Shown: piece by piece, positions 18,000 through 31,792 of the stretch
Position numbering within the stretch: position 1 is the first letter of the stretch
Layout: each line of letters begins with the position of its first letter
Source: Syntrophorhabdaceae bacterium
GTDB lineage: Bacteria; Desulfobacterota; Syntrophorhabdia; Syntrophorhabdales; Syntrophorhabdaceae
Assembly: GCA_036504895.1 (NCBI GenBank)
Contig: DASXUJ010000067.1
Location: forward strand, 1-58,971
Direction of reading: 5' to 3'
Length of the DNA: 58,971 nucleotides
Translations under genes and position numbers: made by a program
The notes under the pieces: generated by a model
What the model saw: only the letters and a program-made list of their open reading frames with translations
What the model was told of the DNA's origin: nothing
Databases searched by the model: none

Positions 18000-18647
18000 C
18001 TACTTCTTTAACGCAGCTTTCACCTGGGCTACGATCTCTTCACTGCTCAAGGAGGCTATGGTCTTCAGAAGACCTTCCTTCTCGTAGAAGGCGGCGAGAG
18101 GAGCGGTTTTCTCGTTGTAAGTCTCCAGTCGCTGGGTAATGGCTTCCACGGTCTCGTCCGCGCGCTGTACCGCGGGGGAGCCGCATTTGAGGCATTTGCC
18201 TTCGGGTGTTGGGGGCTTGCTCTTTATATTGTAGATCTCCTGGCAGTCAGGGTTCGAGCAGGTCCGGCGGGTGGTGAGCCGGTCGAGGATCACGTCCCTG
18301 GGCACATCGAGGTTTATCACCGCGTCGAGCTTGATCCCCAACTTGGCGAGGAGTGCCTTCAGGTCCTGGGCCTGGGGAATGGTTCGCGGGAAGCCGTCGA
18401 GGATGAAGCCTTTCGCGCAGTCGGGCTCCTGGAGCCTCGCTTCCATAATATCCATGATCAGCTTATCGGGCACAAGCTCGCCCCTCTCCATGTACCCCTG
18501 TGCCTCGAGTCCAAGCGCGCTTTTCGCCTTGACTGCGTTGCGCAGGATGTCACCCGTGGAGATCTGCACTGATCCGTCAAATTCGGTCAACTGCTTTGCC
18601 ACCGTACCCTTACCGGCACCCGGAGCCCCTAATAACACAATTCTCAT
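18000..18647 (-). CDS. adk: adenylate kinase (zinc-containing, long LID)
   Basis: A 215-residue adenylate kinase, AMP + ATP to 2 ADP. The P-loop GAPGAGKGT is at residues 7-15; DGFPRTIPQAQ marks the NMP site. The LID carries four cysteines in the pattern C-x4-C...C-x2-C (CSNPDC and CLKCGS), so it binds a structural zinc. SD AGGAGGG precedes the start. Standalone gene here, not in a ribosomal-protein operon. Confidence 0.97.
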   Translation of the reverse strand: MRIVLLGAPGAGKGTVAKQLTEFDGSVQISTGDILRNAVKAKSALGLEAQGYMERGELVPDKLIMDIMEARLQEPDCAKGFILDGFPRTIPQAQDLKALLAKLGIKLDAVINLDVPRDVILDRLTTRRTCSNPDCQEIYNIKSKPPTPEGKCLKCGSPAVQRADETVEAITQRLETYNEKTAPLAAFYEKEGLLKTIASLSSEEIVAQVKAALKK

Positions 18648-18699
18648 GGGCCACCCTCCTAATTTTATGAATTTTAATTTAGACCTAGAAAAACGTCAT

Positions 18700-18728
18700 A
18701 TTATACCCTCTTTTTCGGCAAATGGGAA
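18700..18728 (-). promoter_or_regulatory. adk promoter candidate
   Basis: Minus strand: TTCCCA, 17 bases, perfect TATAAT. The -35 is weak. The leader would be about 45 bases. Confidence 0.4.
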
Positions 18729-18841
18729 CTTAAATCGGGGCAAAGAGGCGGGAACATTGGTCCGTGATCGACTTATGTTTCATGCCCCGTGAGCGATAAT
18801 CCCAATGCATGGTTTTTAAATTATCGACTCCGGAGGTACGG

Positions 18842-20230
18842 GTGAAATTATTTAGAGGTAAATTTATGCTCATAGGTCTCCTGCTTGCGCTCATCATCGC
18901 AGGCCCGGTCCTGGCACAGACGATCACGGATGTAAGCGACGGCACCACTCTTAAACAGATCATCATCTTCGGCCGTCATAGCATACGGTCATCCGCAATT
19001 CCCGCGGACACACTGGCCACTTTTTCGACGAATACCTACCCGCCTTTCACCGGGGTCCCTGTGGGCTACCTGACTCCCCGCGGGCAGGAGGCGGCACGCC
19101 TGCTCGGCTCCTACTTCCGTGAATATCTGCTCAGCGAAGGGCTTCTCACGGGCAGCGCCTCCACGGACCTCTCCCGCTCCTATTTCCGCGCCAATTCGAT
19201 CCAGCGCTCCAACATTACGGCTTCCAAGATAGGCGAGGGGCTGATCCCCGGTGTCACCATACCGGTCCACTCCTACAGGATCGCCGATCCCAATACCAAC
19301 ACGCCTGCCGTGACCGATCCGGTATTCGATCCCGTTGCGGCGGGCTTCGTGACTATCGACAGCGATCGTGCGTTGATGGTGGTTCAGGGAAAGTACGGCA
19401 CCGCCGCGGCTCTGGCATCCGCATACAGCGCCGAGCTTGCCCTCGTTCGTAACGTGCTTGCCCCGGCAGGCTCGGTCGACCCGACCTCTCAGACCACCCA
19501 CCCCTTTACTCTCACGGCCTATTCACCTGTCACGAACGCGGGCCTCGCGATTAACATGGGTGGGCTGAGTACCACAACCGAGGCCACCGACCCCTTCGTC
19601 ATGCAATATACCGACAACTTCGCGCCCGGGGATGTGGGCTGGGGCAAATTTACGCCCGATACCCTTTCCCAGGAGACCCGGCTGGAAATACTGAAGATCA
19701 ATATCGCAATGCGCTCGCCCTATATCAACCAGGCGCAAAGCTCCAATGCCGCCTCCCACGTGCTTCGCTCCATGATGCAGGCCCATTCGAACACGAACCT
19801 GCGAGGGGCTTTCGGGGACCGTAAGTCACGGATTGTCGTGGTTACCAGCTCCGATTACTATGTCGCGGGGCTGGCGGGCCTTCTAGGTCTCCACTGGTCT
19901 TTGCAGAGCTATCAGCCCGATTTCTGCGCTCCCGCCGGAGCGCTTGTCTTCGAGCTGCGCCAGTCCAATAGAACAAAACAATACTTTGTCCGGGTCCATT
20001 ACACCGCCCAGACCTTCGACCAGCTGCGTAATTTGACGCCCCTGACTAGTGAGGTGCCTCCTGCCACAATGCAGCTCACCGTTCCGGGGGGCAGCACCTC
20101 GACCACGAACCTCGATGTACCGTGGCCGACTTTCAAAAGGCTTATGACGGAGGCGATCGGTCAGCAATACGTCCAGCCTTACGGGCAGGACTTCCCGCCC
20201 GGCGTGATTAGCAACGTTCCTTTGGATTAA
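18842..20230 (+). CDS. exported histidine-acid-phosphatase-like protein
   Basis: A 462-residue secreted protein. A GTG start at 18842 follows GGAGG at the right distance and gives a good signal peptide (FMLIGLLLALIIAGPVLAQ); an ATG at 18809 in the same frame lacks an SD. The mature protein begins with FGRHSIRSS, the position of the R-H-G-x-R-x-P catalytic motif of branch-2 histidine phosphatases (phytase, AppA, glucose-1-phosphatase), but with G to S and P to S changes. The distal His-Asp motif is replaced by SSDYYVAGL, so the aspartate is kept and the histidine lost. The fold is likely the same; catalytic competence is uncertain. Cell location is periplasmic. Confidence 0.75.
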   Translation: MKLFRGKFMLIGLLLALIIAGPVLAQTITDVSDGTTLKQIIIFGRHSIRSSAIPADTLATFSTNTYPPFTGVPVGYLTPRGQEAARLLGSYFREYLLSEGLLTGSASTDLSRSYFRANSIQRSNITASKIGEGLIPGVTIPVHSYRIADPNTNTPAVTDPVFDPVAAGFVTIDSDRALMVVQGKYGTAAALASAYSAELALVRNVLAPAGSVDPTSQTTHPFTLTAYSPVTNAGLAINMGGLSTTTEATDPFVMQYTDNFAPGDVGWGKFTPDTLSQETRLEILKINIAMRSPYINQAQSSNAASHVLRSMMQAHSNTNLRGAFGDRKSRIVVVTSSDYYVAGLAGLLGLHWSLQSYQPDFCAPAGALVFELRQSNRTKQYFVRVHYTAQTFDQLRNLTPLTSEVPPATMQLTVPGGSTSTTNLDVPWPTFKRLMTEAIGQQYVQPYGQDFPPGVISNVPLD

Positions 20231-20291
20231 TGGAAACCAACTGAAAACCGGGATCACCGATCTGTCTTACATGGGTGATCCCGGTTCAGGA

Positions 20292-21956
20292 TTAATTGAT
20301 CCTGAATGTAAGCCTGGCCGATTTAAGTATTCTGTCGCCCGCCGTTTCGACCTGTACCCTCGCCGCCCCTTTCCCGGTCACCATGGTTTCCGTTACCTGG
20401 ACCTGGAGCTGAATGGGGGAAACATAAGTCACCGGAAGTTCCGTCACGACGCGCCCCATGGTCCACCGGACTTTCGAAAGGGGGATAAAGTTCCTGCCCG
20501 TGAGGTTCAGGGTAAAGGCGGGCCCGCCGCTGGCGGCAGTACCCGGGTTGAGCCTGCTCAGCGCCGGTGACGGGTAGGAATAGACGAAAGTCTTGCCTGC
20601 CGATTCGCCGCAGCCCTGAGGGTTATAGACTGTAATGACCGCGCTCCCTTCGGAGCCTATTTTGGCGGCAGGGACGATGACTGTCATCTTCCTTGGATTC
20701 ACGTACGTGGCATCCAACGCCTCTCCGTTCCAGCGCACAATCGCATCGGGAGCCATATTTCTGCCCTTCACCGTCACTGTTACATTCGTACCCAGACCCG
20801 TCGCCTGACTTCTGGCAGGTGCGATGCCGGCCAGGGTGGGGCGGTGCGTGAGGGTACGCTGCGCCCGAATGGCATCCATCATCTGATGGGCGTAATCACG
20901 GCGCAGGGACGCATACTCGCCCTTGTTCCCCGTCTCCTTCTCATACGCCCAGTTGTGGATAAAGTTGAAACATGCCTCCCTGAGCGTGGGGCTTCCGACC
21001 ATGGCAATCAAAGGGGCATTCCAGTCTATGGGACAGTATTTACCCTCTCTCGCCATGCTGCGCCTCACCAGCTCTTCGTAGACGGCGATGCTCGCGTCGT
21101 CGCTGCGGTCCGTGCCGTTCCCGGAGCCGAATTCCACCCCATTCTCGTCATAATTTGAGGGATTGTTCCAATCGTAATAACAGGACTTCGGCTCCCGGTT
21201 CGGATCGAGAGTGGGCCAGCCGAAGAGTCCCGGCACGGTCGCCGACAATGCGAGGATGTCGGCAATGCAAAGGCGGTGGTGAATCGAATCGGCGAGCATG
21301 TGCAGGTAGGTACCGAAGGCCTCGAGCGAGCCGGGCTCCAGGCCTGTTTCGATGTTCATGGGCATTTGATAGTGGCAGACTCCCTCGATAGCCTCGGCGC
21401 CCTTGGTGCCCCACGAGAACGCGGCGTAACCCTTCAGAACCCTGGTTTCTCCCCACGCCCACTTTCGGGCATTCTCCAACTCGCCGTTGTCGGTACGCGG
21501 GAAATGAAAAAAAGGCCCGAAGAAGCCCGGACGGGCCAGGACACAGGGCTGTCCGTAGGTGGTCTGGCTGGGGTATAACGGAAAGATGAGGGCCCCTTCT
21601 CCTTTCCCGGACGGGCATATTGCAGGATCGTCGGGATTTGGGATAGGGGGATAGACGCCAGAGCAGTTGGTATAGTACACCATGCCGTTCGTTGAGCTGA
21701 ACCGCATCGAATCGGTAAGCTGATTGTAGATCGACATAATAGCCGCGTCCGCATCATTGAAACCGGCTGCCAGGGCCAGCGCACGGGCCAGCTCGGTGTG
21801 AACGGAGCTGACCTGTTCAATTCCTGCCACGCCCGTGAATGGATCCCTGAAGTAGAGGGGCTCCTCCGCAAACCCCCAGGCCGAGTGAATATTGATCGAA
21901 AGAAGACAGATGAAAATTCCAATCCACATAATCCGGTAAGTAAGTATGCCTATCAT
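20292..21956 (-). CDS. exported protein, phospholipase C/S1-P1 nuclease-like with two IPT domains
   Basis: A 554-residue exported protein. A signal peptide (to about WGFAEE) is followed by a 360-residue helical region with HTELARALALAAGF, FGTYLHMLADSIHHRLC and REACFNFIHNWAYE, whose spaced His/Asp residues recall zinc-dependent phospholipase C/S1-P1 nucleases. Residues from about 375 hold two tandem IPT/TIG immunoglobulin-like domains (GIAPARSQATGLGTNVTVTV and LNPGTAASGGPAFTLNL). The start at ATG 21956 has GGGGG seven bases upstream; a GTG lies six bases earlier. It converges with the histidine-phosphatase-like gene; both are exported and may release phosphate from organic compounds. The enzymatic call is tentative. 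Confidence 0.6.
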   Translation of the reverse strand: MIGILTYRIMWIGIFICLLSINIHSAWGFAEEPLYFRDPFTGVAGIEQVSSVHTELARALALAAGFNDADAAIMSIYNQLTDSMRFSSTNGMVYYTNCSGVYPPIPNPDDPAICPSGKGEGALIFPLYPSQTTYGQPCVLARPGFFGPFFHFPRTDNGELENARKWAWGETRVLKGYAAFSWGTKGAEAIEGVCHYQMPMNIETGLEPGSLEAFGTYLHMLADSIHHRLCIADILALSATVPGLFGWPTLDPNREPKSCYYDWNNPSNYDENGVEFGSGNGTDRSDDASIAVYEELVRRSMAREGKYCPIDWNAPLIAMVGSPTLREACFNFIHNWAYEKETGNKGEYASLRRDYAHQMMDAIRAQRTLTHRPTLAGIAPARSQATGLGTNVTVTVKGRNMAPDAIVRWNGEALDATYVNPRKMTVIVPAAKIGSEGSAVITVYNPQGCGESAGKTFVYSYPSPALSRLNPGTAASGGPAFTLNLTGRNFIPLSKVRWTMGRVVTELPVTYVSPIQLQVQVTETMVTGKGAARVQVETAGDRILKSARLTFRIN

Positions 21957-22097
21957 AAGCACCCCCGTATACTGATCGGATTTATTCTCTCATGCCCTAT
22001 AGTAACAATAGTAGCATAAATGATATATTTGTCTATAATAATACTTAAAAGAAGACAATAATATATTTTATTGACTGAAATCCCAGGCAGTTGTTTT

Positions 22098-22925
22098 TTA
22101 CTCTATGGCTTCAGTGGTGAGCGTCGTGGGGCGAAAGGGGTTATATCTGCCGAAGCGTATGACCCTGATCTCCCCGGGGGACGCAACAACGCCGCGAACA
22201 ATGATGCCCTCAGGGTCTTCGTCACTGAACAGGGCGAGAGAGACAAGAAAGCCGTCGGAGCCGATAAGGCCCGTCAACTGGCCCTCTCCCACCGGCCATG
22301 GCCCCCTGACGACGCGCCGGTTCGCGGTGGAGAGCCTGATCTCCGGGGCATCCTTGAAATGTTCATCGAAGAGGGACTTCCGGTAGCAGGCCCGCTCACC
22401 CGCGCTCCTTGCCCGGACGAACTGCGACGGGCACAGGACGAGGTTCGCGATTTCCATCTCCGCGATATGGTCCCGTAACTGTCGCGTATCTCCCTCCTTG
22501 TCGAAAAAGACAACAAAATCGACTCCCAGAATTGCGATCTTCATCCTCTTCAGAGCCCAACCGAAAGGGCCTTCCACCAGGCCCGTGGTATCGACGAGAG
22601 TCTGCCGGCCGGGGAGCCCGTCCATGATCCTGCGGAACCGGGTAAGACCGCCCTCGAGCTCCCTCACCACCCCGAAAGGTGAGATATTTCCCACGAAATA
22701 GAGGTATTGCACGCCTTCCGAAGTCCTGAGCCCGATAGTGGACGGTGGGCCGATAGTGGACGGTGGGCCGATAGTGGACTGGCCCATGTCGAGATCGATA
22801 TGGATGTAGGGTTTACCTGCGGCGATCAGTTCCCCGATTGCCTCTTTCACGAAAGTGCTCTTGCCCGTATCGATTCCGCCTACGCACATTATCGTGTTAC
22901 GGCCGCTGAATTGTTCGGTCACCAT
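22098..22925 (-). CDS. Clp1-type P-loop polynucleotide kinase/NTPase
   Basis: A 275-residue P-loop protein of the Clp1/Grc3 group. Walker A is GGIDTGKST (residues 16-24), followed by IHIDLDMGQSTIGPP and then VDTTGLVEG as Walker B-like motif. Archaeal and eukaryotic relatives phosphorylate 5'-OH ends of RNA or DNA. The start MVTEQF has GTGAGG as SD and sits eight bases after the stop of the phosphatase gene; an upstream in-frame ATG would overlap that gene and is less likely. A 6-residue PPSTIG unit is duplicated right after the DxGQSTIG motif. A role in RNA 5'-end metabolism is inferred. Confidence 0.8.
   Translation of the reverse strand: MVTEQFSGRNTIMCVGGIDTGKSTFVKEAIGELIAAGKPYIHIDLDMGQSTIGPPSTIGPPSTIGLRTSEGVQYLYFVGNISPFGVVRELEGGLTRFRRIMDGLPGRQTLVDTTGLVEGPFGWALKRMKIAILGVDFVVFFDKEGDTRQLRDHIAEMEIANLVLCPSQFVRARSAGERACYRKSLFDEHFKDAPEIRLSTANRRVVRGPWPVGEGQLTGLIGSDGFLVSLALFSDEDPEGIIVRGVVASPGEIRVIRFGRYNPFRPTTLTTEAIE
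22732..22779. repeat. 18-bp in-frame tandem repeat, 2.7 copies
   Basis: The unit CCGATAGTGGACGGTGGG is present twice exactly and a third time for 12 bases. It encodes repeated PPSTIG/STIGPP inside the Clp1-like gene. As the unit is a multiple of three, gain or loss of copies keeps the frame. Confidence 0.95.
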
Positions 22926-22932
22926 GGGGACC

Positions 22933-23355
22933 TCACGCGGATTTCGCCCTTGGGCGGGCCAAAAGCCCTTTTGCCTTATCAATACTGAGAATGAGATCGG
23001 GAAGGATCGACATGTACGGCTTTCTGGATGCGGCGAATTCGACGGCCTCTCCGAATCCGTAGTTTTCAATGCAACAAAGATAGGCGACCACGACGGACGG
23101 CGCCCGCCCTACTCCCGCGTTGCAGAAGACCATGATCCTGTGATCCGCTATATACTCCCGGATGAAACGGACTGCCTGAATTAGTTGCGGCGCGGGGATC
23201 GGCTGCATATCCTCCAGGGGGACTTTGCAGTAGAGGCGCCGCACGAAGGAGAGCTCTTTTTCTCCGGCCACACAGAGCAGGGCGTCGATATCAACGGCAG
23301 GGGCCGTCGCCTCGTCGAAATTGCCGATTGCCAGGTTCTCGAGGATGTAATCCAT
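22933..23355 (-). CDS. dual-specificity protein/RNA phosphatase (DSP family)
   Basis: A 140-residue cysteine-based phosphatase. The P-loop is VFCNAGVGRAPS, with C78 and R84 (C-x5-R), preceded by LIQAVRFIREYIADHRIMV and followed by VVVAYLC, as in small DSPs; the usual His before the Cys is Phe. The N-terminal YILENLAIGNFDEA is also DSP-typical. It is the first gene of a two-gene unit with the Clp1-like kinase. Members of this family include RNA 5'-triphosphatases (PIR1-like), which would fit the partner; protein substrates are equally possible. Confidence 0.88.
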   Translation of the reverse strand: MDYILENLAIGNFDEATAPAVDIDALLCVAGEKELSFVRRLYCKVPLEDMQPIPAPQLIQAVRFIREYIADHRIMVFCNAGVGRAPSVVVAYLCCIENYGFGEAVEFAASRKPYMSILPDLILSIDKAKGLLARPRAKSA

Positions 23356-23546
23356 ATCTCCTCCGGTCGTTATCTAAATGGTAATCATTCCTCTGAATCC
23401 GGCAACTCCCATATTCCGATGCGGGGACCGGGTCACCACCGGTTACCGATCCGGGTGCGTAAAATGAGGCACAGGGGCAATTTTATTATGCCCGGGGCTC
23501 TTGACTTCAATTTCATCACATCTTAGTTTTAGGTTTATAAGGGCTT

Positions 23547-23552
23547 TATAAT
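23547..23552 (+). promoter_or_regulatory. -10 element of the cold-shock gene
   Basis: TATAAT lies 23 bases before the start codon. No good -35 is seen at standard distance; TTGACT at 23501 is too far for this -10. The leader would be very short for a cold-shock gene. Confidence 0.35.
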
Positions 23553-23575
23553 ACTAAAATGAAAGAGGTATAACT

Positions 23576-23776
23576 ATGGCCAATGGAACGGTGAAATGGT
23601 TCAATGACGCAAAGGGGTTCGGTTTTATCGCCCAGGACGAAGGCAATGACGTGTTTGTGCATTACTCTGCGATCAGAACCAGCGGTTATAAATCGCTGAG
23701 CGAAGGCGACAGGGTAAGTTTCGAGGTCGTGGCCGGCCCCAAGGGTCCTGCCGCGGCGAACGTCGAAAGAGGGTAA
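23576..23776 (+). CDS. cold-shock protein, CspA family
   Basis: A 66-residue single cold-shock domain. RNP1 is KGFGFIAQ and RNP2 is DVFVHYSAI, both intact. It binds single-stranded RNA/DNA and acts as an RNA chaperone. SD GAAAGAGGT. A terminator follows directly. It is divergent from the RNA-kinase/phosphatase unit. Confidence 0.95.
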
Positions 23777-23807
23777 AGCCCGCTCGTAGCTGTCGGGCCG
23801 GGCTTTT
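23775..23807 (+). terminator. terminator of the cold-shock gene
   Basis: AAAGCCCG and CGGGCTTT arms with additional inner pairing end in TTTT just after the csp stop codon. Confidence 0.75.
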
Positions 23808-23967
23808 CGAAGCTCTTACCGCACATGAGAATCGAGTATAACCCGAAAATGCTTATGTGCAGGTTTGCGGACGATTTGTCCCGGCCCGGACAAGACAAAG
23901 AGGTTGAGGGCATCGGAGCCCAAAGGTCAACCTGAACATTTTCACCAAATGGGTGACAGGAGGCGCC

Positions 23968-24165
23968 ATGCAGCAACGCAAAGTAATGAGACCGTCAAAG
24001 GTCGACAAATCCGGAGGAGACAATACCAGACGCGCTATGGCCGCAAAAGCCTTTATGCGTTTTCAATGCACAGGCTGTAACCATTGCGTCTCTCCCGGGA
24101 TGTTTACTACTGAAGGTTGGGTAGCTTACAAACAGACAGGACTCTGCCCCGACTGTCAAAAATAG
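23968..24165 (+). CDS. small zinc-ribbon protein
   Basis: A 65-residue basic protein with a C-terminal C-x2-C...C-x2-C knuckle (CTGCNHC and LCPDCQK). The start MQQRKVM follows AGGAGG by four bases, stronger than the ATG fifteen bases upstream. I do not recognise the family. Position after a cold-shock gene and its size suggest a nucleic-acid-binding role; this is inference. Confidence 0.65.
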   Translation: MQQRKVMRPSKVDKSGGDNTRRAMAAKAFMRFQCTGCNHCVSPGMFTTEGWVAYKQTGLCPDCQK

Positions 24166-24551
24166 ACAGCGGGGACAGATGCCTGTCGGGGCGTCCGCCC
24201 TTGGAGTCGCTGCCCCTTTCCTCGGAAAGGCATTCAGTGGACCATCAAATCCATGAGGAGAAGCCCCCGAAATGAAGGGGGTGGAAAGCTCTCCGCCTTC
24301 ACTGTCATTTTATCCCCATGCCTTCCCCTGATATCCCTCCATGGCTTCATCTGATATTACCCTGTGCCTTCATGTGCCCTCGAGGCATCAGGGAACAAAA
24401 TGCAGCCAACCCGGCATACCATCGAAGCACCTGCTTCAGACCTCCTTCCGGCCGGCTCGAAAGGCGCCTCACCATCGCGGCGCGCCAATCATGATAGGCT
24501 TTTGCGCGCTCCTTGACTTGCGGTGCATAGTGGCGCATACTTTAAAACTGT
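24166..24551. other. intergenic, about 390 bases
   Basis: No convincing coding sequence on either strand. Several short hairpins are present, for example CCCCCGAAATGAAGGGGG near 24270. The last 40 bases hold the promoter of the helicase gene. Confidence 0.5.
24513..24541 (+). promoter_or_regulatory. promoter of the UvrD-like helicase, predicting a leaderless mRNA
   Basis: TTGACT, 17 bases, CATACT. The -10 ends ten bases before the ATG, so transcription would start within about four bases of it. No SD precedes the ATG. Confidence 0.5.
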
Positions 24552-26540
24552 ATGAAAAAATATACCCTCCACAAGGACGTGACGAAGGGCTCCTTTCATA
24601 TCCCCTACGAGCAGGAACTAAACGAAGAGCAGCTCCAGGTAGTCCTGGCTGAACCGGGTCCCGTGCTCGTCATCGCGGGGGCGGGCAGCGGCAAGACACG
24701 AGTGGTCACCTATAGGGTGGCACGCCTCCTCGAACAAGGTGTCTCTCCTTCGAGTATCCTTCTTCTCACCTTTACGAATAAGGCGGCCCGAGAGATGCTC
24801 CACCGGGTCGAGCACCTCATGAAGATCGACACGCGTTCCATCTGGGGCGGCACCTTCCACCATATCGGTAACCTCCTCCTCCGGAAACATGCGGAGCTCG
24901 TGGGCTTCAGGCGGAATTTCTCCATCCTCGACAATGAAGACGCCAAGGACTTGATCGAGGCGGCGGTAAAGGAGTCGAATATCGATCGTAAAGCCCGAAG
25001 GTTCCCTAAGGGCAGCGTGATAAAGGATATCATAAGTTATTCGGTAAATACGATGGCTGACGTGGAAACAGCCATAGATGAGAGGTTCCCCTACTTCGCC
25101 GACCTCACGGAAGAGATCGTCATGCTCCGCCGTAAGTATGAGGAGAAGAAACGGGCGGCGAATGCCATGGACTTCGACGACCTCCTCTCCTTCTGGCATA
25201 AGCTCCTCGCGGACCATGAGGACCTGAGAAAGTTCTATGCCATGGCCTTCTCCCATATCCTGGTCGATGAGTACCAGGATACGAACAGGATCCAGGCGGA
25301 GATTATCGATTTCATGGGCCTCATCAACAGGCAGGTCATGGTAGTGGGGGACGACGCCCAGAGTATCTACTCCTTTCGGGGGGCCGATTTCCAGAACATC
25401 CTCGAATTCCCGAAAAAATACCCGGAGGCGCGGGTATTCAAGCTCGAAACGAATTACAGGAGCACCCCGGAGATCCTCGGTCTTGCGAATAATTCCATTT
25501 CAAAAAACATGAAGCAGTTCGCAAAGGAGCTTCGAAGCGTAAAAGAGAGCGGCATCATACCGGCGGTTGCCCCCTCCCGGGACGTGATACAGCAGGCAGA
25601 GTTCGTGGCCCAGAGGATACTCGAGCTTCGGGACGAGGGGGTGCCATTGAGGGAGATCGCCGTCCTCTACCGCGCCCATTACCACTGCATGGAGCTTCAG
25701 ATGGAGCTTACCCGGAGGGATATCCCTTTTGAGATACGGAGCGGATTGCGATTTTTCGAGCAGGCCCATATCAAGGATGTGGTCTCCTTTCTCAGGGTCG
25801 TGGTCAACCCGGACGATGAAGTCTCCTGGAAAAGAATGCTCCAGCTCTTCCCGAAGATCGGGAAGAGGACCGCGGAAAGGATCTATGCCTATGTGAGGTC
25901 CTCTCAAAACCCCGTAGAGCTTCTCACCACGGGGAAACTGGGAGAAGTGTTCAAGAGCGTGCAGAAAGAAAGCGTGGCCACGTGGGCGAAGCTCTTCCGC
26001 GAGCTCTCCCGCCTCCACGAGCGGGAGGCCCCGGCGGACATGATCTCCGCCATCCTCGAGAACGGATACGGGGAGTATGTGAAATACAACTACCCCAACC
26101 ATGAGGCGCGGCTCGAGGATATCGGCCAGCTCATGAACTTCTCATCCCAGTATCACTCCCTCGAGACCTTTCTCGCCGAGCTTTCCCTTATGGGCGGCAT
26201 TACGGGCGAGGAGATCGAAAACGCGGGGGAAAAGGAAGACGAGCGGGTGATCCTGAGCACGGTCCATCAGGCGAAAGGGCTCGAGTGGAAGGCCGTATTC
26301 ATCATCTGGTGCGCCGAAGGAAGGTTTCCAAACCCGAAGGCGGTGGAGGAAGGGAGTATCGAGGAGGAGCGGAGGCTCTTCTATGTAGCCGCGACCCGCG
26401 CCATGGACGAGCTGTACCTCTGTTATCCCCTCATTGTCTTTGACCGTCAGGTAGGCCACATCATCACGAAGCCCTCGAGGTTCATCGCAGAGCTTTCCAG
26501 CAGGCATTACGAAGAGTGGCAAATCTCCGAATTCGGATAG
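24552..26540 (+). CDS. UvrD/Rep/PcrA-family ATP-dependent DNA helicase
   Basis: A 662-residue superfamily 1A helicase, 3' to 5'. Motifs in order: Q-motif region ELNEEQLQVV, Walker A GAGSGKTR (about 43-50), TFTNKAAREM, Walker B VDEYQDTN (about 238-245), GDDAQSIYSFRGAD, ETNYRST, STVHQAKGLEWKAVFI and VAATRAMDEL. It lacks the long C-terminal tail of E. coli UvrD and is nearer in length to Rep/PcrA. It unwinds DNA in excision repair or replication restart. Apparently a single-gene transcript. Confidence 0.95.
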   Translation: MKKYTLHKDVTKGSFHIPYEQELNEEQLQVVLAEPGPVLVIAGAGSGKTRVVTYRVARLLEQGVSPSSILLLTFTNKAAREMLHRVEHLMKIDTRSIWGGTFHHIGNLLLRKHAELVGFRRNFSILDNEDAKDLIEAAVKESNIDRKARRFPKGSVIKDIISYSVNTMADVETAIDERFPYFADLTEEIVMLRRKYEEKKRAANAMDFDDLLSFWHKLLADHEDLRKFYAMAFSHILVDEYQDTNRIQAEIIDFMGLINRQVMVVGDDAQSIYSFRGADFQNILEFPKKYPEARVFKLETNYRSTPEILGLANNSISKNMKQFAKELRSVKESGIIPAVAPSRDVIQQAEFVAQRILELRDEGVPLREIAVLYRAHYHCMELQMELTRRDIPFEIRSGLRFFEQAHIKDVVSFLRVVVNPDDEVSWKRMLQLFPKIGKRTAERIYAYVRSSQNPVELLTTGKLGEVFKSVQKESVATWAKLFRELSRLHEREAPADMISAILENGYGEYVKYNYPNHEARLEDIGQLMNFSSQYHSLETFLAELSLMGGITGEEIENAGEKEDERVILSTVHQAKGLEWKAVFIIWCAEGRFPNPKAVEEGSIEEERRLFYVAATRAMDELYLCYPLIVFDRQVGHIITKPSRFIAELSSRHYEEWQISEFG

Positions 26541-31673: not shown

Positions 31674-31792
31674 AGTCGCTAGTCGCTAGTCTCTAGTCTC
31701 TAGTCTCTAGTCGCTAGTCGCTAGTCTCTAGTCTCTAGTCTCTAGTCTCTAGTCGCTAGTCTCTAGTCTCTAGTCGTTAGTATATAGTAACT
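31674..31792 (+). repeat. heptamer tandem array, 17 units
   Basis: Seventeen uninterrupted 7-base units: mostly AGTCTCT and AGTCGCT, ending in AGTCGTT, AGTATAT, AGTAACT. It begins five bases after the stop codon of the anti-sigma-type gene. A shorter array of the reverse-complement units lies at 34131. The following bases to 31941 contain no gene; the last part (from about 31905) resembles, in inverted form, sequence near 35360-35400. Confidence 0.97.

Follow-up and report, generated by a model that had tools for sequence, protein, structure and literature searches.

A divergent Clp1-family gene and a dual-specificity phosphatase gene are neighbors in a lineage-specific insertion of a Syntrophorhabdaceae bacterium

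The window, by which we mean the whole stretch of DNA that was analyzed, covers positions 1-58,971 of contig DASXUJ010000067.1 (GCA_036504895.1) of a Syntrophorhabdaceae bacterium. On its reverse strand lie 2 closely spaced genes, the first encoding a dual-specificity phosphatase (DSP) of 140 amino acids (22933-23355; Pfam DSPc at E = 1.5e-11, exceeding the curated cut-off), and the second a protein of the Clp1/Grc3 family, a predicted 5'-OH polynucleotide kinase of 275 amino acids when read from its ATG (22098-22925; Pfam CLP1_P). Both family matches are far beyond chance. The DSP stop codon is separated from the Clp1 ATG by a spacer of 7 bases (22926-22932, reverse strand), with a GAGG overlapping the stop, and GGAGGAG is found upstream of the DSP start. 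An earlier interpretation made from the letters and their open reading frames, referred to here as the sequence-only reading, had put this spacing at eight bases, so that the closeness of the genes stands and the exact count is corrected by one. The open reading frame list starts the Clp1 gene at a TTG (23069), which would make it overlap the DSP gene by 137 bp; when aligned, relatives of the protein start close to its ATG. Because of the 7-base gap and the GAGG over the DSP stop codon, co-transcription and translational coupling of the 2 genes are plausible. A CspA-type cold-shock gene on the forward strand (23576-23776; Pfam CSD E = 3e-29) diverges from the pair, as had been described; its use as support for a function in RNA metabolism does not hold up, given that such genes form a common family and that this one lies inside the insertion discussed below and is uninformative about an RNA role of the pair.

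The assignment of the downstream protein is firm. The CLP1_P match (E = 5.2e-20; 72.5 bits, cut-off 26.6) spans profile positions 1-187 of 188, and a profile constructed from 46 bacterial Clp1 relatives retrieves human Clp1 (1.5e-27), Caenorhabditis elegans Clp1 (8e-23) and NOL9 (3e-18). The AlphaFold model (pLDDT 89.8) reaches a Z-score of 25.9 to both human and C. elegans Clp1, and structures of Clp1, Grc3 and NOL9 top both structure searches (Z 25.9-17.5), with GTPases next at 11.8; the alignment to human Clp1 extends over 255 residues, compared with 146 residues for the best GTPase. An unrelated GTPase is thereby ruled out, and the P-loop protein is of the Clp1/Grc3 type, in agreement with the sequence-only reading. 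The Walker A lysine (K22), the aspartate of the DxDxGQ motif (D46) and the lid arginines (R178 and R182) are identical in 45 of 45 bacterial relatives, and D46 coincides in the profile alignment with the ELDVGQ aspartate of C. elegans Clp1. The eukaryotic clasp motif TxGW reads TTGL in this protein. Considering that the tryptophan position is occupied by leucine or phenylalanine in every bacterial relative aligned, the tryptophan is no marker of the bacterial branch. As the clasp residue is leucine here and leucine or phenylalanine in these relatives, we infer, rather than assert, that the protein is most likely a 5'-OH RNA kinase. It would transfer the gamma-phosphate of ATP to 5'-OH ends of RNA, and perhaps also of single-stranded DNA, with the Walker A lysine binding ATP, the DxDxGQ aspartate activating the 5'-OH and the lid arginines closing over the phosphates.

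Among the bacterial Clp1 proteins that we collected, the window protein is an outlier. Its best identity is about 30%, and in the tree of the collected proteins its terminal branch measures 2.22 against a median of 0.28, a long branch on which the protein finds no firm placement. It keeps 24 of the 29 columns that are conserved at ≥90%, the fewest of all, while every relative keeps at least 90% of them; 5 otherwise near-universal residues are altered. In addition, Tandem Repeats Finder detected an 18-bp tandem repeat within the gene (22732-22779, reverse strand; 2.7 copies, 100% identity). One extra unit encodes the hexapeptide STIGPP directly after DxDxGQ, which is an insertion relative to the 45 relatives and lengthens the loop; the repeat-encoded stretch adjoins a low-confidence loop of the AlphaFold model (residues 63-71). 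The repeat represents either a recent duplication or an assembly error.

These features bear on 2 alternative readings. The Clp1 gene could be a decaying one, recently inserted and fast-evolving, in which an in-frame 18-bp duplication lies close to the active site and whose product is barely active or inactive. The long branch, the 5 altered residues and the exact repeat beside the low-confidence loop all fit such decay, but the frame is fully open, the catalytic residues are all kept and an assembly error could equally produce the repeat, and we therefore consider it unlikely. Alternatively, the divergent kinase may have changed its substrate to a small molecule or another hydroxyl, with the DSP resetting its product, so that the 2 genes would be a genuine kinase-phosphatase pair restricted to one lineage. 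The branch length, the low number of conserved columns kept, the leucine in place of the clasp tryptophan and the tight spacing of the genes would be in line with this; however, the defining residues of Clp1 chemistry, in the lid and the Walker motif, are intact, and leucine or phenylalanine at the clasp, being common to all aligned bacterial relatives, is not specific to the pair. We regard a changed substrate as distinctly improbable.

For the upstream gene, the identification as a small DSP by the sequence-only reading is borne out by the DSPc match and by intact catalytic residues. The protein carries the Cys-x5-Arg loop on a DSP fold (C78-NAGVG-R84), with D49 as the general acid, and the residue preceding the catalytic cysteine is phenylalanine, where histidine is usual. 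D49 is nearly invariant among the relatives, being conserved at ≥90% in the DSP alignment. The AlphaFold model (pLDDT 90.8) gives Z-scores of about 17 to human DUSPs, and the best matches in structure and profile searches are protein, lipid and glucan phosphatases; DUSP11 and MCE1 are not among the matches listed, an absence that carries no evidential weight. By these features, the protein would act as an ordinary cysteine phosphatase, with C78 as the nucleophile, assisted by R84 and the general acid D49. The RNA triphosphatases PIR1, MCE1 and BVP have no catalytic aspartate in the WPD loop (PMC9038691), whereas the window DSP has D49 and so differs from the PIR1 type.

The genomic surroundings of DSP relatives, which we defined at E < 1e-15 and found in 10 other genomes of the phylum sample, hint at sugars or glycans. 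The closest ones, at 50-55% identity, are encoded next to a sugar nucleotidyltransferase gene (L108), downstream of a UDP-sugar dehydrogenase gene (L133) and beside an MBL hydrolase gene (L109). In a second branch (34-41% identity), the DSP genes of L112 and L114-L116 are found beside glycosyltransferase-like genes, joined by GH130 where the flank extends to it, and in L117 the DSP makes up the C-terminal portion of a larger protein adjoining a clear glycosyltransferase; for several of these neighbors, the glycosyltransferase label is based on weak or missing Pfam scores combined with sequence resemblance. Because D49, absent in the PIR1 type, is kept, and because several relatives are encoded near sugar-metabolism genes, the proposal that the DSP is a PIR1-like RNA 5'-triphosphatase is unsupported, and a phosphosugar, glycan or phosphoprotein is more likely to be its substrate than an RNA 5' end. 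As a separate observation, the branch comprising L112 and L114 through L117 constitutes a recurrent glycosyltransferase-like/GH130 cluster and is a candidate glycan-linked family of bacterial DSPs. In 2 further DSP reading frames (L111 and L113, the latter adjoining an MBL-fold hydrolase gene), the catalytic cysteine is replaced by serine (FSSRG-SRPPS), and their products are likely pseudophosphatases.

Both genes reside in a lineage-specific insertion of 5.9 kb (18648-24508) between adk (18000-18647) and uvrD (24552-26540), recognized from the adjacency of adk and uvrD in relatives. In addition to the DSP, Clp1 and cold-shock genes, it contains genes for a histidine phosphatase of branch 2 (His_Phos_2, 18809-20230, forward strand; Pfam E = 3e-14) and a large IPT/TIG-domain protein (20292-21962, reverse strand; Pfam E = 2e-9), as well as a small Cys-containing open reading frame. 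In 4 of the 8 relatives checked, adk and uvrD are directly adjacent and divergent, at a distance of 100-417 bp. The 4 others have different neighbors next to uvrD, and the site is therefore variable. DNA homology to L101 begins at 24509, the first base after the insertion. We considered several origins and roles for the inserted DNA. A foreign base composition was dismissed, with the GC content of 53-60% being similar to that of the surroundings, as was a phage or plasmid origin, with Clp1 giving no matches in phage and plasmid collections or viral contigs and the DSP none in plasmids. A defense system was likewise rejected, the P-loop protein giving just a weak PADLOC match (mad8, E = 4e-4). 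Elsewhere in the window, a 7-bp unit (AGTCTCT) forms a tandem array of about 15 copies (31674-31788), and the same genome carries 2 genes for RtcB RNA ligases (contigs C35 and C62) alongside the Clp1 kinase gene.

Among the genomes examined, the arrangement of the 2 genes was found in the window genome only. Of the 46 genomes of the class, this one alone carries the pair, or indeed the DSP by itself, and no strong DSP match was found in other genomes among 79 relatives. The only other Clp1 genes of the class are 3 distant ones, all in a single other family (f3), where the gene lies between uvrC and dnaA in 3 of 3 genomes. A DSP profile search of the flanks of 84 other Clp1 loci (82 distinct), which measure about 0.2 to 6 kb with many of just 1.5 kb, returned no DSP. 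Conversely, Clp1 does not occur within 1.5 kb of the DSP relative in any of the 10 other genomes that have one. More generally, a conserved partner for bacterial Clp1 was sought among its neighbors and dismissed, as these vary by lineage with no recurring RNA-processing partner seen. Separately, 4 Clp1 loci, some of different phyla, feature phosphoglycerate-mutase-like phosphatases of one cluster.

At the level of whole genomes, CLP1_P occurs in about 58 of 395 genomes (15%) of the phylum sample, which is more common than the 0.9% reported in 2019 (PMC6777427). A full CLP1_P gene is present in 6 of the 10 other DSP-bearing genomes, compared with 57/394 (hypergeometric p about 0.001), with the 2 genes on different contigs in every case and never linked. 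The 6 genomes stem from only 3 families, so that this p-value overstates the case and relatedness may explain the excess; we regard the co-occurrence as one loose hint of a link, confounded by phylogeny.

The sequence-only reading had proposed an RNA 5'-end processing module, in which the DSP would strip 5' (tri)phosphates from RNA and the Clp1 kinase would restore a 5' monophosphate. Such a phosphatase-kinase module would be notable if true, and the 7-base spacing, the solid Clp1 membership and the above-chance co-occurrence of the families speak for it. The evidence nevertheless goes against it: the genes are adjacent nowhere else, the DSP has the general acid aspartate that PIR1, MCE1 and BVP are without, structure and profile searches match it best to phosphatases of proteins, lipids and glucans, and several relatives of it are encoded amid sugar genes. 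That reading had itself named a lack of conservation as refuting the module, and the pair is missing from all other genomes of the class, from some 82 other Clp1 loci and from the loci of the DSP relatives. We judge the module very improbable. A broader version, in which a fast-evolving Clp1 and the DSP would have opposing actions on a single substrate, be it an RNA 5' end or another hydroxyl, as a lineage-specific pair, is quite improbable too; were it true, the unlinked co-occurrence elsewhere would reflect a functional link between the families.

Since the pair is adjacent in no other genome examined, it is better read as a strain-specific neighborhood than as a conserved RNA-end machine. 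Our preferred explanation, to which we assign a probability of roughly 0.6, is a singleton neighborhood in a lineage-specific 5.9-kb insertion, where a divergent Clp1 kinase and an ordinary, unrelated DSP may share one transcript. Counting against this singleton explanation, the spacing of 7 bases is suggestive of a genuine operon, the 2 families co-occur above chance, though unlinked, and many of the flanks covered extended over 1.5 kb only.

Comparison with known systems places both proteins. A 5' kinase paired with a phosphatase is familiar from T4 Pnkp, the families of which are unrelated to those of the window pair. The same pairing occurs in the Pnkp1-Rnl-Hen1 RNA repair system (PMC4411300), again with unrelated kinase and phosphatase families, and the window pair has no ligase or methyltransferase gene beside it. 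For the adjacency of a DSP gene and a Clp1 gene, we found no report in the literature, so that the earlier description of the pairing as uncharacterized stands, whereas bacterial Clp1 itself has been characterized (PMC6777427). The DSP shares the Cys-x5-Arg phosphatase fold with PIR1/DUSP11, MCE1 and BVP, from which the WPD-loop aspartate separates it (PMC9038691). Its sequence matches include the phosphoglucan phosphatases LSF2 and laforin as well as DUSP22 and Tk-PTP, and AG-x-GRAP of LSF2 aligns with its CNAGVGRAP; compared with LSF2, laforin and other DSPs, it has no carbohydrate-binding module, and identity is about 20%. With eukaryotic Clp1 and Grc3/NOL9, the kinase has in common the fold (Z 25.9-17.5), the P-loop lysine, the DxDxGQ aspartate and the lid arginine; it differs in having leucine for the clasp tryptophan and in being without the N- and C-terminal partner domains (TSEN and Las1 partners). 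Bacterial Clp1 proteins are sporadically distributed, with CLP1_P in 0.9% of complete bacterial genomes as of 2019, and Ts-Clp1 of Thermus scotoductus phosphorylates 5'-OH RNA (Saito et al. 2019, PMC6777427), the single bacterial Clp1 enzyme reported as assayed in the literature we found. Like the window protein, Ts-Clp1 has the CLP1_P kinase domain but not the N- and C-terminal domains of the eukaryotic enzymes; the window protein differs from it by its strong divergence, the extra hexapeptide after DxDxGQ and the DSP neighbor. Considering that bacterial Clp1 is known and that RNA 5'-OH kinase activity is proven for Ts-Clp1, the window protein is a very divergent new member of this group, and as such useful for comparing sequence with activity.
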